DNA from: Phyllobacterium myrsinacearum
GTDB taxonomy: Bacteria > Pseudomonadota > Alphaproteobacteria > Rhizobiales > Rhizobiaceae
Assembly: GCF_014138285.1 (NCBI RefSeq)
Contig: NZ_JACGXN010000002.1
Coordinates: 186,001 to 250,000 of the forward strand
Length of the DNA stretch: 64,000 bases
Direction: 5' to 3'
Shown: positions 37,388 to 42,453 of the stretch, piece by piece
How positions within the stretch are numbered: position 1 is the first letter of the stretch
Layout of the letters: every line of letters begins with the position of its first letter
Translations under genes and position numbers: made by a program
The notes under the pieces: generated by a model
What the model was told of the DNA's origin: nothing
Database searches by the model: none
What the model saw: only the letters and a program-made list of their open reading frames with translations

Positions 37388-37567
37388 ACCATTCATTTCA
37401 ACGCTGTATGCCGCCTACGCTTTAGCCGCTCAGCCATTCAACTTGCCTCAAACTTAATATGCCTGCCCATTTTTTGGGCGATTTTCGACGTTGCAGCGTA
37501 AATAGCGGAATGTGCTTGCATTTTTTTCCCAACGCGCTTGAATGACTTTGTCTGAAGGGGATTATGA

Positions 37568-38980
37568 GTGAAGCCATTTGATGAGATGATCAAAACCGGC
37601 GGTCAGGTACGCCCGCCTTATGAACAACTGCAATGCTGGCTTGATACCCAGAACCCGGAAAGGTTTGCGCAGAAGGCGCGCGATGCAGAAAATGTCTTTC
37701 GCAAGACCGGGATTACCTTTGCCGTCTATGGCGATGAAGAAGCGGCAGAACGCCTGATCCCATTTGATATCATCCCGCGCATTATCACCGGAAATGAATG
37801 GCGACGCCTGTCGCAGGGTATCGAACAGCGCGTCATGGCCCTCAACGCATTTCTGGACGACATCTACCACCGTCAGGAAATTATCCGCGCTGGCCGCATC
37901 CCGAGGGAATTGTTCACCCACAACGATGCGTATCTGCCCGAGATGGTCGGCTTCCGGCCGCCCGGCAATGTCTATACCCACATCATCGGTGTCGACATCG
38001 TCAGAACAGAAGAAAACCAGTTCTACGTTCTCGAAGACAATGCGCGCACGCCATCCGGTGTTTCCTACATGCTGGAAAACCGCGAAACGATGATGCAGCT
38101 GTTTCCCGAGCTGTTCCAGCAGATCAAGGTGCGTCCCGTCGAAACCTACCCCAAACTGTTGCGGCAATCGCTGGCCGCCGTTGCCCCACCCGGTTGCAAC
38201 GGCACGCCGACCATCGCGGTCCTGACACCCGGCATCTACAATTCCGCCTATTTCGAACACGCATTTCTGGCGGACCAGATGGGTGTTGAACTCGTCGAGG
38301 GCAGCGACCTCAAGATCGAAAATGGCAAGGTGGTCATGCGCACCACGGAAGGTAATCGCGCCATCGATGTGCTCTACAGACGTGTCGATGATTCTTATCT
38401 CGATCCCCTCACCTTCCGGCGCGATTCAACGCTCGGTGTGGCCGGGATCATGGACGTCTACCGCTCGGGCAATATCACCATTGCCAATGCACCCGGAACG
38501 GGCATTGCCGACGACAAGGCGCTCTATTCCTATATGCCCGAGATTGTCGAGTTCTATACGGGGCGCAAGGCAATCCTGGAAAACGTCCCGACCCATCGCT
38601 GTTCCGAACCGGACACGTTGAAATACGTGCTGGAAAACCTTGCCGATCTTGTCGTCAAGGAGGTTCACGGTTCGGGCGGCTACGGCATGCTCGTCGGACC
38701 GGCGGCCACAAAGAAAGAGCGGGAAGATTTCGCGCTGAAGCTGAAGGCCAATCCGAAGAACTACATCGCCCAGCCGACACTCGCCCTGTCGACCACACCG
38801 ATCATGACGGAAAAGGGCCTGGCGCCGCGCCACGTTGATCTGCGTCCCTTCGTCCTCGTGTCCGATCGCATCCGCATCACGCCGGGCGGGCTGACACGGG
38901 TGGCATTGAAAGAGGGTTCACTTGTTGTCAATTCCAGTCAGGGAGGCGGGACAAAGGATACCTGGGTTCTGGACGACTGA
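37568..38980 (+). CDS. Circularly permuted ATP-grasp type 2 protein
   Basis: This 470-residue protein belongs to the circularly permuted ATP-grasp group (DUF404/DUF407), predicted peptide or amide-bond ligases. Recognisable segments are RIPRELFTHNDAYLPEM near residue 110, the EDNARTPSGVSYMLENR stretch near 155, and VHGSGGYGMLVGP near residue 365. It starts at a GTG at 37568, behind GAAGGGG; an ATG four bases earlier is in another frame and closes after five codons. It leads a four-gene operon with alpha-E, transglutaminase-like and Anbu genes. The product or target is unknown. Confidence 0.88.
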   Translation: MKPFDEMIKTGGQVRPPYEQLQCWLDTQNPERFAQKARDAENVFRKTGITFAVYGDEEAAERLIPFDIIPRIITGNEWRRLSQGIEQRVMALNAFLDDIYHRQEIIRAGRIPRELFTHNDAYLPEMVGFRPPGNVYTHIIGVDIVRTEENQFYVLEDNARTPSGVSYMLENRETMMQLFPELFQQIKVRPVETYPKLLRQSLAAVAPPGCNGTPTIAVLTPGIYNSAYFEHAFLADQMGVELVEGSDLKIENGKVVMRTTEGNRAIDVLYRRVDDSYLDPLTFRRDSTLGVAGIMDVYRSGNITIANAPGTGIADDKALYSYMPEIVEFYTGRKAILENVPTHRCSEPDTLKYVLENLADLVVKEVHGSGGYGMLVGPAATKKEREDFALKLKANPKNYIAQPTLALSTTPIMTEKGLAPRHVDLRPFVLVSDRIRITPGGLTRVALKEGSLVVNSSQGGGTKDTWVLDD

Positions 38981-39052
38981 AAAAGCCGAATGGGTCATGA
39001 GGGCTGCCAGAGACGGCCCCATCAATAAATAAAAGAGGGATACAACCAAAAC

Positions 39053-39994
39053 ATGCTTCTTGGTCGCACCGCGAATGGTCTCTACTGGATGTTCCGCTAT
39101 ATCGAGCGGGCAGAGAATATGGCACGCCTGATTGATGCCGGTTTGCGGATGGCTCTGACGAAAACCTCCGATGCGCCGGAGGAATGGTCATCGGTGTTGA
39201 TGAGTGCCGGTGTCAAGATCGGCTATGACGCAAAATACAGCGAATACAATGCCAGCCTTGTCTCCGATTTTCTGTTGCGCGATCTCGGTAACCCGTCGAG
39301 CGTAATGTCTTGCATCGAGACTGCCCGGTTTAATGCCCGCATGGTGCGCACCGCTCTGACGCGCGAAGCGTGGGAAAGCGTCAATGAAACCTGGATGATC
39401 CTGAAATCCACGCTTGCAACAGCCACTCCCGAGACGGATCTTCCGCGGGTTCTCGACCAGATCAAGCGTGAGACAGCCATTATTCGCGGCGCCTTCCACG
39501 GGACGATGCTGCGCAACGAGATTTTCAATTTTGCCCGCATCGGTACGTTCATCGAACGGGCAGACAATACGGCACGCATTCTCGACGTGAAATATTATGT
39601 GCTGTTGCCCTCGATTTCCTATGTCGGGACGACGCTCGATAATTTTCAGTGGGAGTCGATCCTGCGTTCGGTCTCGGCCCATCGCTCCTACCGCTGGGTC
39701 TATGACGTCGAATATAATCCGGTGAATATTGCGGATTATCTGATCCTCAACTCGCGCATGCCGCGATCCCTGAACTTCTGCTATTCGAATATCGTCGACA
39801 ATCTCAGATTTCTCGCCAATGATTACGGCAAGCGGCATGAGTGCCACGACATGTCGGAAAGCATCATGACAAGGCTCGAAAATAATGAAATTCGAACCAT
39901 TTTCGACAACGGCCTGCACGAATTTCTGAGTGACCTGATCTATCAGACAAACGGCCTAGGCAGTAAAATCGCCGAAGCGTACAATTTTGATTGA
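39053..39994 (+). CDS. Alpha-E domain protein
   Basis: This 313-residue, mostly alpha-helical protein carries the alpha-E (DUF403) domain, recognised by the N-terminal GRTANGLYWMFRYIERAENMAR segment and a second similar motif, GTFIERADNTARILD, near residue 163. Alpha-E proteins are almost always encoded next to circularly permuted ATP-grasp enzymes and transglutaminases and are thought to work with them, but the biochemical role is not known. It starts 72 bases after the ATP-grasp gene and ends 5 bases before the likely start of the next gene. Confidence 0.9.
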   Translation: MLLGRTANGLYWMFRYIERAENMARLIDAGLRMALTKTSDAPEEWSSVLMSAGVKIGYDAKYSEYNASLVSDFLLRDLGNPSSVMSCIETARFNARMVRTALTREAWESVNETWMILKSTLATATPETDLPRVLDQIKRETAIIRGAFHGTMLRNEIFNFARIGTFIERADNTARILDVKYYVLLPSISYVGTTLDNFQWESILRSVSAHRSYRWVYDVEYNPVNIADYLILNSRMPRSLNFCYSNIVDNLRFLANDYGKRHECHDMSESIMTRLENNEIRTIFDNGLHEFLSDLIYQTNGLGSKIAEAYNFD

Positions 39995-39999
39995 AAATC

Positions 40000-40797
40000 A
40001 TGCTTCTGACCATCAAGCACACATCCCGTTATCAGTATGACTATCCGGTGCAGTACGCCGTCCAGCGTCTGCGTCTGCAACCGTCAAGTTCCCCCGGGCA
40101 GAAGGTCATCGACTGGACTGTGGCGGTCGAAGGCGCTGAACAGGAAGCCAGTTACCGCGATGGTTACGGCAACAGGACCCAACTTGTTCGGCTTGATCGC
40201 GACGCGAAAGAGCTCGTCATCGAGGCGACCGGCCAGGTGGAAACCGAAGACCGTTCGGGTGTTCTCGGCAAGGTCTATAATTTCATGCCAACATGGCTGT
40301 ACGAGCGCGAAACGGAGCTGACGAAGCCGGGAGATGCTGTGAGGCAACTGGCAGCAAGCCTCAAGGTGACCGATGACAAGCTGGCAGTGATGCACGAGCT
40401 TATGAGCACGCTGCACCAGGTTGTCGCTTACACGCCGGGAACCACCAATATCACAACGACTGCCGAAGAAGCGCTCACCCTTGGTGCTGGCGTCTGTCAG
40501 GACCACACGCATGTATTCCTCGCAGTGGCCCGCACTCTCAAAATCCCTGCCCGCTATGTCTCGGGCTACCTGATGCTGCTCGACAGCATCGAACAGACTG
40601 CCACCCATGCCTGGGCGGAAGCCCACATTGACGGGCTGGGTTGGGTCGGGTTCGACGCCGCCAATGACATATGCCCGAACGAGCATTATGTCCGCATCGC
40701 CTGTGGTCTCGACTACAATGAAGCAGCGCCAATTTCCGGTATGCGCTTTGGTCCGGGCATGGAATCACTTGCCGTAGACCTCAATGTAGAGCAGTAA
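40000..40797 (+). CDS. Transglutaminase-like protein
   Basis: This 265-residue protein has an N-terminal beta-rich domain (about residues 1-90) and a transglutaminase-like cysteine protease core. The catalytic triad is visible as the cysteine in GVCQDHTHVF near 165, the histidine in THAWAE near 205, and the aspartate in FDAAND near residue 222. Proteins of this group in ATP-grasp operons are predicted peptidases that may reverse or trim the ligase product. I chose the ATG at 40000; a TTG three codons earlier overlaps the previous stop codon. It lies between the alpha-E and Anbu genes. Confidence 0.88.
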   Translation: MLLTIKHTSRYQYDYPVQYAVQRLRLQPSSSPGQKVIDWTVAVEGAEQEASYRDGYGNRTQLVRLDRDAKELVIEATGQVETEDRSGVLGKVYNFMPTWLYERETELTKPGDAVRQLAASLKVTDDKLAVMHELMSTLHQVVAYTPGTTNITTTAEEALTLGAGVCQDHTHVFLAVARTLKIPARYVSGYLMLLDSIEQTATHAWAEAHIDGLGWVGFDAANDICPNEHYVRIACGLDYNEAAPISGMRFGPGMESLAVDLNVEQ

Positions 40798-40829
40798 TCG
40801 CCGAGATTTTTTAGAATTCGGGATTCGCT

Positions 40830-41561
40830 ATGACCTATTGTGTCGGGCTTAAATTGGATCGTGGTCTTGTGTTCATGTCGGACACCAGAACAAATGCCGG
40901 CGTCGACAACATCTCCACCTTCAAGAAGATGTATACGTGGTCGAAGCCCGGTGATCGCGTGATCACGCTTTTATCTGCAGGCAACCTTGCCACGACGCAG
41001 ACCGTGATCAGCATTCTCAATGAGCGCACAAAAATCCCATCCGAGCGAGCGCCATCCATCTTCGATATGCCGTCGATGTTCCAGACGGCGCGGCTGATTG
41101 GAGACACGATCAAGAGCGTTATTCATGACGTGGATTCCGATGGGCAGCGTGCCGATTCATTCGGTGCATCCATCATTCTCGGCGGCCAGATCAAGGGCGG
41201 TGAGCCGCGCCTGTTCCTCATCTATCCCGAGGGTAATTTCATTGAATCATCCCCGGATACACCGTTCTTCCAGATCGGCGAGCACAAATATGGCAAGCCG
41301 ATTATCGTGCGCTCCTACGATCCGGCCATGACGTTTGAAGAAGCCACAAAGCTGTTGTTCGTCTCGTTCGATTCCACGCTGAAATCCAACCTGTCGGTCG
41401 GATTGCCGCTGGATATGCAGTTTTACGAAGTGGATACTCTCAAGCTGGGGTTTCAAAAGCGCATCGAACGCAACGACCCCTACTATGAAGCCATCTCAGA
41501 AGGCTGGTCGCAGGCACTGAAACTCGCATTCCAAAGCCTGCCGACATTCAAGATGGATTAG
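40830..41561 (+). CDS. Anbu-type proteasome-like peptidase
   Basis: This 243-residue protein is an Ntn hydrolase of the Anbu (ancestral beta subunit) type, related to HslV and the proteasome. The start reads MTYCVGL, so removal of Met exposes a threonine nucleophile at residue 2. SDTRTNAG near residue 17 and STFKKM near residue 29 supply the usual Asp and Lys. Unlike HslV there is no unfoldase gene next to it. Co-occurrence with circularly permuted ATP-grasp, alpha-E and transglutaminase genes is the known context of Anbu. The substrate remains unknown. Confidence 0.88.
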   Translation: MTYCVGLKLDRGLVFMSDTRTNAGVDNISTFKKMYTWSKPGDRVITLLSAGNLATTQTVISILNERTKIPSERAPSIFDMPSMFQTARLIGDTIKSVIHDVDSDGQRADSFGASIILGGQIKGGEPRLFLIYPEGNFIESSPDTPFFQIGEHKYGKPIIVRSYDPAMTFEEATKLLFVSFDSTLKSNLSVGLPLDMQFYEVDTLKLGFQKRIERNDPYYEAISEGWSQALKLAFQSLPTFKMD

Positions 41562-41610
41562 TTGCAGACCGCACTCGTCAGCGTTCTGGGAAGTTCCGTT
41601 GCAGGTATAG

Positions 41611-41735
41611 CGTGCGTGGTTCGACAAGCTCACCATGAGGGAGAATGAGGATTGCAGGGAGTCAGGTTCTGCAACCTCTGTGATTGGCATTGCAGCATCT
41701 CTCTCCCTCATGGTGAGCCTGTCGAACCACGCACC
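41611..41735. repeat. Interspersed palindromic repeat, copy 2
   Basis: The left arm (GTGCGTGGTTCGACAAGCTC) and right arm are inverted copies, with CACCATGAGGGAGA and its complement inside them. This matches the copy at 25655-25796, while the centre differs more. It lies 50 bases after the Anbu stop codon. Confidence 0.8.
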
Positions 41736-41842
41736 CGAGGTTTTGCAGCCATCAATGCACAAACTGATGCCCCTAACCCCTTTCACCCACTTCGCTTTCC
41801 CACTATGGTCCATGATGAGACTGGTCGAGACGGATCGGTCTT

Positions 41843-42013
41843 GGGGCTTGATAACCCCTCGAGGGCGGCGTTGTGCTGCCGTACAAATGCACTTCCCGGT
41901 CTTATGGTCGGGGAGGCCTTCGCGTATGTTCAGGGGGCAACCCTAAAGGCGAAGGCGCTCTCCCTCGAGAGTTATCAACTCCCCGGTCACCAGAGGCTAA
42001 ACCTCGGGTGACC
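41843..42013 (+). ncRNA. Candidate structured RNA of unknown class
   Basis: A long outer stem pairs 41843-41865 with 41962-41984 (about 20 of 23 positions). Inside it are three hairpins: CGGC/GCCG at 41866-41881, CTTCCCG/CGGGGAG at 41892-41915, and GCCTTCGC/GCGAAGGC at 41916-41956. A fourth hairpin follows, GGTCACC/GGTGACC at 41985-42013, with an inner GAGG/CCTC pair. It ends 31 bases before a small membrane protein gene, so it may be a stand-alone RNA or a leader. It did not match tmRNA, 6S, SRP, RNase P or a riboswitch that I know. The strand is not certain. Confidence 0.55.
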
Positions 42014-42044
42014 ACTTTCCTCAAGGCAAGAAAGGGAGTGCGGC

Positions 42045-42371
42045 ATGAACGACTACAATTTCTGGCAGGATTTTTTCGATACATACCAGTCATTGTCGGA
42101 CTGGCTCAAAATTCTATGGCTGATCGTTCCGCTCGCCTTCGTGCTAGGGCTGGTAGCATTGACCATGCGGTTTCGCATCGAGAGTAAGCGAGCGGAAAAA
42201 AGGTTGGATGGGGAGTTGGTCTATTCGCTCCACCGCGATGCGCATAACCGGATTCACATTGTCAGCCATGTCGGGCGTGTGGGGCATAACCCATCGCTGC
42301 TTTTTCTCGATCAGGGCGACAGGCACTCCTTTGAACACCAGCAGATCGAACCGCCACCTATAAACCGGTAG
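42045..42371 (+). CDS. Small membrane protein of unknown function
   Basis: This 108-residue protein has one clear membrane helix (about residues 20-42, SDWLKILWLIVPLAFVLGLVALTM), a basic stretch after it (RIESKRAEKR), and a soluble tail. The ATG at 42045 follows GGGAGTGCGGC, a fair ribosome binding site. No domain was recognised, and the last 30 residues look less ordered than the first 70. It lies directly after the structured RNA candidate, which could act as its leader. I believe it is a real gene because of its start signal and membrane helix, but the function is unknown. Confidence 0.6.
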   Translation: MNDYNFWQDFFDTYQSLSDWLKILWLIVPLAFVLGLVALTMRFRIESKRAEKRLDGELVYSLHRDAHNRIHIVSHVGRVGHNPSLLFLDQGDRHSFEHQQIEPPPINR

Positions 42372-42416
42372 CTCTGGAGTGCCTTATCTGCGGTGCGATC
42401 CTGTAAGCTCAGGAAT

Positions 42417-42453
42417 CTCACCATGAGTCCGTGGTTCGACAGGGTTTTGCAGT
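42417..42453. repeat. Fragment of the interspersed repeat
   Basis: CTCACCATGAG and GTGGTTCGACA, two pieces of the repeat at 41611-41735, occur here close together in rearranged order, followed by GGGTTTTGCAG. Confidence 0.5.

Follow-up and report, generated by a model that had tools for sequence, protein, structure and literature searches.

What a minimal relative of the proteasome does beside an amide-forming ligase, and which of the genes around it belong to its task, is the question raised by a locus of Phyllobacterium myrsinacearum, at positions 37568-41561 of a 64,000-nucleotide stretch of contig NZ_JACGXN010000002.1 (positions 186,001 to 250,000; hereafter the window). This minimal proteasome relative, Anbu, was named in 2008, and to our knowledge no function has become known for it since. 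It is encoded by the last of four same-strand genes, the others specifying a circularly permuted ATP-grasp ligase, an Alpha-E protein and a transglutaminase-like protein (TG). The system itself is already known, and the window holds an intact copy of it. The reading we favour, and to which we give a little less than an even chance, is that the operon is an ATP-driven amide-ligation and hydrolysis module for nitrogen economy.

The four genes and their minimal core

The operon comprises the following features.

37568-38980, + strand: circularly permuted ATP-grasp ligase, 470 amino acids (aa), GTG start, intact signature
39053-39994, + strand: Alpha-E protein, 313 aa, predicted to be all-helical
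40000-40797 (from ATG), + strand: TG, 265 aa, Bact_transglu_N plus Transglut_core
40830-41561, + strand: Anbu of the Anbu-1 type, 243 aa, starting Met1-Thr2, without a propeptide
37555-37560, + strand: AAGGGG, probable ribosome-binding site of the ATP-grasp gene, read from the sequence and kept in the genus

Open reading frames (ORFs) and Pfam matches confirm that four same-strand genes of these families are present, as the original prediction had proposed: CP_ATPgrasp_2 (E 9e-165), Alpha-E (E 2e-91), Bact_transglu_N and Transglut_core (E 4e-23 and 4e-20) and, for Anbu, Proteasome (E 5e-9). Their linkage, also part of that prediction, is documented in the literature (Fuchs 2017, PMC5666114; Piasecka 2018, PMC6376114). 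The genes are separated by 72, 5 and 32 base pairs (bp); TG has an alternative start, TTG at 39991, and the Met1-Thr2 start of Anbu is the first in an open frame that is only 5 codons longer. Among PDB sequences, 3n6x aligns to residues 2-470 of the ATP-grasp protein (E 6e-196), five Anbu sequences match the window copy over residues 2-239 or more (E 1e-63 to 8e-88, best 5loy), and part of 3isr matches TG. No PDB sequence related to Alpha-E was found at E up to 1, nor did a fold search give a convincing relative; the protein carries an ER motif twice (IERAEN 17-22 and IERADN 167-172).

By sequence the active sites are intact, and the catalytic residues that had been reported from the sequence alone are borne out in the Anbu, TG and ATP-grasp alignments. 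Anbu Thr2, Asp18 and Lys33 (Thr1, Asp17 and Lys32 in mature numbering) show no variation in any of the 81 sequences from the window and the named loci, which are the best 80 of 281 relatives ranked by Anbu similarity and therefore biased towards Anbu; the same residues are found in 34/34 Anbu ORFs of a first survey batch. Cys166, His203 and Asp219 of TG fall within columns that are at least 98% conserved (n = 48 sequences), and 258 ATP-grasp columns reach that level (n = 80 sequences). The window ATP-grasp displays the signature Asp143, Glu156, Asn158, Arg160, Lys317, Lys364, Gly370/371/373, Gln402, Asp424, Arg426 and Arg444. Its ligase part (Glu156, Asn158, Lys317, Lys364) is kept in 60 of the 61 standalone ATP-grasp rows surveyed, the single exception being, as we read it, a piece of a fused gene truncated by the contig end in L186; in a second alignment the signature is intact in 6/6 standalone rows, window included.

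The S1 pocket of the window Anbu is of the Anbu-1 type (T21, F31, S49, L53 and T56 in pre-protein numbering); the published pockets consist of T20, F30, T48, L52 and S55 in Anbu-1 and of I20, A29, R46, R50 and T53 in Anbu-2 (PMC5666114). Residue 31, in the wall of this pocket, is Val in 33/33 loci without TG and Phe in 42 of the 48 with TG, window included, a split that shared ancestry may explain. The only other PF00227 match of the genome lies in a 219 aa frame of a different contig, probably HslV as judged by length, and the alpha plus beta subunits of a 20S proteasome were not found in this genome.

Anbu is present in 20/20 genomes of the genus and in 36/59 of all genomes searched (the own genome being counted in both). 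All four genes occur in order in 47/80 named loci, including 17/17 of the nearest (L031-L047; 15 Phyllobacterium and 2 'Rhizobiales bacterium'). The operon had been called complete, and its order indeed stands in the window and these 17 loci; it is not an indivisible unit, since TG is absent from 33/80 named loci and Anbu is unlinked in 8/69 genomes of the phylum sample described below. ATP-grasp, Alpha-E and Anbu are kept in 32 of the 33 TG-less loci, which are mostly Aurantimonas, Aureimonas and Jiella, with Alpha-E and Anbu 106-377 bp apart in 28 and 1.7-3.8 kb apart in 4; in the remaining one (L071) Anbu stands alone in the stretch examined. Whole-genome searches of the 33 TG-less genomes with the window TG retrieved distant paralogues only (best E 4e-24), while three TG-containing loci used as positive controls gave 5e-171, 2e-111 and 8e-90. 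In the phylum survey, four Anbu genomes (G196, G125, G289 and G176) possess no PF08379 protein, only other Transglut_core proteins, and in the last two Anbu is unlinked as well. The idea that all TG-less genomes borrow a TG from a second locus is weakened by these four genomes. Taken with the TG-less named loci they indicate that TG is dispensable for keeping Anbu; to judge from gene content, the operon-type TG is a dispensable part and the minimal core is ATP-grasp, Alpha-E and Anbu.

A short precursor peptide gene inside the operon, considered in the original prediction, finds no room: in the 17 nearest loci the gaps measure 58-81, 5 and 30-38 bp. By eye, no shared ORF was seen between Alpha-E and Anbu in the 9 of 32 TG-less loci read. 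Four related genomes (L048, L049, L050 and L108) have an extra gene at the same site between ATP-grasp and Alpha-E. The L048 copy, on which alone Pfam was run, is a four-helix bundle of the 23S_rRNA_IVP family (PF05635); we rejected it as a substrate and take it to be an inserted mobile gene. When ORFs of at least 130 aa from the neighbourhood of the surveyed loci were clustered and the 30 largest groups inspected by eye, no recurring accessory gene emerged beyond common families, those found in more than 5 loci resembling ABC ATPases, response regulators and short-chain dehydrogenase/reductase (SDR) enzymes. Two scans of viral contigs gave no relative; four phage records match the ATP-grasp, which we guess to be misfiled bacterial contigs, and 27 records of a plasmid collection match Anbu.

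Anbu is also in near-constant company with Alpha-E across the phylum. Of 200 genomes sampled across it, 112 have Alpha-E, 69 have Anbu and 63 have DUF2126; Alpha-E is present in 68/69 Anbu genomes (Fisher p 6e-22) and DUF2126 in 35/69 (p 5e-5), p values that overstate the case because the sampled genomes are related. The distance from Anbu to a standalone Alpha-E is at most 3 kb in 47/69 genomes and 3-10 kb in 12, and in 8 the two are unlinked, while G188 and G242 are Anbu genomes without a listed standalone Alpha-E (the Anbu match of G242 is partial, and that of G110 weak). In 14/69 genomes Anbu is found within 1.5 kb of a DUF2126 amidoligase domain. These figures bear on the view that Anbu acts on its own, degrading damaged or surplus proteins without ATP, and that its neighbours form a separate metabolic unit sharing the promoter, which we consider unlikely. 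The ring-like dodecamer, the binding of inhibitors and the S1 pocket argue for proteolysis (PMC5666114), and the eight genomes with unlinked Anbu also speak for this view. However, Alpha-E is somewhere in the genome in all but one case, ATP-grasp, Alpha-E and Anbu remain adjacent after TG loss, the amidoligase domain is repeatedly close by, and no activity on model substrates was seen (PMC6376114).

Promoters upstream of the ATP-grasp gene

In relatives of the system, the region upstream of the ATP-grasp gene is enriched in predicted sigma54-type promoters. We scored sites with our own weights on the -24/-12 consensus (TGGCAC-N5-TTGC; maximum 15.5) in 65 standalone ATP-grasp genes from 52 genera and 39 families. 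A site of at least 14 was found upstream of 21/65 genes vs 2/853 controls (p 5e-24), the controls being upstream regions of other ORFs of at least 250 aa in the same loci, some of them spurious ORFs. The positive loci are spread over 16/52 genera and 14/39 families, and 8/21 have Anbu in the same locus. At cut-offs from 13 to 15 the enrichment gives p values between 2e-24 and 3e-4, to be read with the facts that the loci are not independent and that the cut-offs were set after a first pass (with rough starts, 13/65 at 14.5 or more). Anbu genes situated apart from the operon have no strong sigma54 site (best 13.0). Exact NtrC-type palindromes (GCAC-N7-GTGC) occur at 8/65 genes vs 18/835 controls (p 3e-4), and a looser count (7 of 8 letters) gives 26/65 vs 218/835 (p 0.013). 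In five loci of one family (L136, L142, L148, L149 and L153) the palindrome begins 67 bp upstream of the sigma54 site.

This signature fits the published NtrC and RpoN regulons. In an ntrC mutant of Burkholderia cenocepacia under nitrogen limitation, the values for DUF404/407, DUF403, TG and a large TG are -8.2, -9.4, -9.4 and -6.0 (PMC5491218), probably on a log2 scale given the stated cut-off of |log2FC| > 2.3 (FC, fold change). An RpoN site, TGGCCCGGCCCTTGC, is predicted for a CP_ATPgrasp_1 gene of Bradyrhizobium DOA9 (PMC13207237), and locus L152 of our survey carries the identical string. Anbu is also cited as rising in nitrogen-limited Pseudomonas putida (PMC5666114, PMC6376114), and in marine metagenomes these domains associate with urea-metabolism domains (PMC3597751).

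The Phyllobacterium operon itself is preceded by a different element.

37515-37543, + strand: promoter-like block, CTTGCA (37515-37520), 16 bp, CTTGAAT (37537-37543), aligned in the window and L031-L047

The block is genus-wide in the form CTTGC[AT], 16-17 bp, CTTGAAT, and most relatives with TG also have CTTGC[AT] near -50. By eye we assigned it as sigma70-like, and we infer that the Phyllobacterium operon was switched from sigma54 to a sigma70-like, housekeeping-type promoter.

The second locus and the possible role of the module

Another contig of the own genome (L116) encodes two more PF08379 proteins and a second Alpha-E, in the following arrangement.

L116 8033-8911: small TG
L116 8923-11319: circularly permuted ATP-grasp fused to Alpha-E, 798 aa
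L116 11518-14850: TG-DUF2126, 'putative amidoligase', 1110 aa

No Anbu was found within the 20 kb read around it. Asn158 is lost in every fused ATP-grasp/Alpha-E surveyed (15/15 and 10/10 rows; 0/25 keep it), hence the fused enzyme is by its sequence a dead ATP-grasp, and its ligase role at this locus has presumably been taken over by DUF2126. The standalone pair, the fused protein, TGs and Anbu are united in one cluster in 6/65 loci (L132, L170, L173, L178, L181 and L183); the cluster of L186 is cut by a contig end. Since the Pfam description of Alpha-E, which follows Iyer 2009, reportedly lists active and inactive ATP-grasps, Alpha-E, TG, an N-terminal nucleophile (Ntn) peptidase and a TG-ligase fusion already, our finding at the second locus is a confirmation and not a discovery. 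Adjoining the locus, at L116 6624-7751 and 4994-6820, are an aminotransferase of class V and a binding protein of family 5 (oligopeptide-type), with ABC transporter genes (by eye) farther out; such a setting would suit nitrogen scavenging.

In the favoured amide module, the ATP-grasp enzyme, with Alpha-E as its dedicated partner, would turn a carboxylate into an acyl phosphate and couple an amine to it, giving a peptide, an isopeptide or a conjugate of an amino acid. Transfer, trimming or hydrolysis of the ligated bond would then fall to TG, a cysteine enzyme, and to the Anbu particle with its Thr nucleophile. The task of the module would be to build and release a store or tag in which nitrogen is held by amide bonds; in Phyllobacterium it would have moved onto a housekeeping-type promoter. 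Acyl phosphate formation followed by amide formation is the known chemistry of ATP-grasps, and the Yersinia enzyme frees phosphate from ATP (PMC6376114), while Thr1 of the Pseudomonas aeruginosa Anbu is modified by epoxomicin (PMC5666114). Alpha-E occurs beside active standalone ATP-grasps, which in our survey were mostly found through Alpha-E, and fused to the dead one; the simplest reading is thus that it partners the ATP-grasp fold. These points on ATP-grasp, Alpha-E and Anbu, together with the sigma54/NtrC wiring in relatives, lead us to favour an amide cycle of nitrogen economy. The direction of the reaction, the identity of the Anbu substrate with the ligase product and the nitrogen role in the genus are what we infer here.

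Several observations weigh against this module. The best sigma54-type site in the 400 bp upstream of the window operon scores 10.5 of 15.5, no site of the named relatives reaches 14 (best 13.5, in L057, L089 and L094), and scores run from 10 to 12 in the 8 survey loci whose Anbu is most similar; a nitrogen role in the genus therefore rests on more distant relatives. Moreover, 44/65 survey loci have no site of at least 14, and none of 18 large TG genes has one of at least 14.5. Anbu is missing from 44/112 Alpha-E genomes, so the ligase can do without it, and one Anbu (G188:C88:6053-6775, L197) belongs to the only genome of the 69 without an Alpha-E match. The Anbu proteins tested were all inactive on proteasome substrates, and the operon proteins showed no specific interaction with one another (PMC6376114); inhibitor binding was taken by Fuchs 2017 to argue for protein degradation over peptide synthesis (PMC5666114). 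No product is known for the system and, as the original prediction had stated, no substrate is established. The inactivity on proteasome substrates is also as expected if the substrate of Anbu is a particular conjugate.

The product might instead be a small amine conjugate, similar to glutathionylspermidine or a gamma-glutamyl polyamine, with TG or Anbu as the amidase. The closest solved structure, 3n6x, is labelled a putative glutathionylspermidine synthase, and polyamine transport genes also appear in the B. cenocepacia NtrC table (PMC5491218); but that label is a prediction of the depositors, and we find this alternative improbable. Still more doubtful is a Pup-like protein-tagging system, in which ATP-grasp and Alpha-E would ligate a small tag, TG would crosslink and Anbu would remove the tag or degrade the protein: two amide-forming enzyme types do stand beside a proteasome homologue and the hypothesis is already in print (quoted in PMC6376114), but the operon gaps given above hold no tag gene, the inspected neighbour clusters common to more than 5 loci look like common families, and Anbu has no known AAA+ partner (PMC5666114).

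A fuller version of the nitrogen module can be put forward only tentatively. Under it, an ATP-grasp/Alpha-E pair switched by RpoN and NtrC would store or tag nitrogen as an amide conjugate and Anbu would free it, with a core that does without TG. The second locus would be the other half of the pathway, split off in Phyllobacterium and united with the first elsewhere, and the core would have been rewired from sigma54 to a housekeeping promoter.

Downstream elements and comparison with known systems

Two features lie between the operon and the region beyond it.

41610-41736, strand not assigned: palindromic repeat resembling a repetitive extragenic palindrome (REP-like), between the operon and the next gene
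41800-42420, + strand: dispersed unit of an RNA leader (about 41822-42030) and a 108 aa ORF (42045-42371)

With up to 2 mismatches allowed, the own genome has 91 forward and 90 reverse copies of the REP-like half-site and 0 of a control pattern; as a genome-wide repeat the palindrome was rejected as an operon part. MicroRNA matches from Rfam at 41610-41736 are far below the gathering scores and reflect the fold-back of this palindrome. The dispersed unit, whose small ORF has a hydrophobic segment, gives 5 matches in the own genome; counting this one, 6/39 of the genomes searched carry it, some with several copies. The RNA and small membrane gene had been suggested as extra parts of the system. 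That suggestion fails, as the unit is multicopy and stands next to the operon only in the window and 2/17 nearest loci (L032 and L033); in 13/17 of these loci the matches to Anbu and to a convergent L,D-transpeptidase end 3-66 bp apart.

The RNA leader nevertheless looks real from its alignment. Its fold has a z of -4.2, and across 12 copies 15/55 pairs vary on both sides while 99.5% of cells stay paired, a covariation that exceeds all 500 shuffles and all slid versions, with the structure derived from the same alignment that served for the test. Rfam has no family matching it at E up to 1. Beyond the window, copies are seen in L216, L218-L223, L225, L226, L032 and L033, from a few Phyllobacterium genomes, and the unit is possibly an undescribed RNA-regulated mobile gene.

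For the Anbu operon, the analysis clearly excludes the downstream features and a precursor gene inside the operon, and it yields a TG-free minimal core and a statistically strong sigma54 signature. The signature makes the old substrate question testable under nitrogen limitation, where RpoN and NtrC should induce the operon in many lineages, and the TG-DUF2126 locus is worth considering as a partner of the Anbu operon.

Among known enzymes, glutathionylspermidine synthetase/amidase combines an ATP-grasp amide ligase with a thiol amidase, as the window operon does, in its case without Alpha-E and without an Ntn peptidase. The second locus of the same genome has the same domain families as the window operon and differs by its lost ATP-grasp active site and by the lack of Anbu within 20 kb. 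The cluster I35_5080-83 of B. cenocepacia likewise contains DUF404/407 (ATP-grasp), DUF403 (Alpha-E) and TG and is NtrC- and sigma54-dependent under nitrogen limitation, but as listed it has a large TG protein and no Anbu (PMC5491218). The closest counterparts are the Anbu operons of P. aeruginosa, Yersinia bercovieri and Hyphomicrobium, which comprise the same four families in the same order (PMC5666114, PMC6376114). Thr1, Asp17 and Lys32-33 are common to the published Anbu proteins and the window copy (PMC5666114, PMC6376114), and the window pocket of T21, F31, S49, L53 and T56 corresponds to T20, F30, T48, L52 and S55 of mature P. aeruginosa Anbu (PMC5666114). Nothing essential separates the window copy from the published operons, from which it differs in having no sigma54-type promoter and in sharing its genome with a second, Anbu-less locus.

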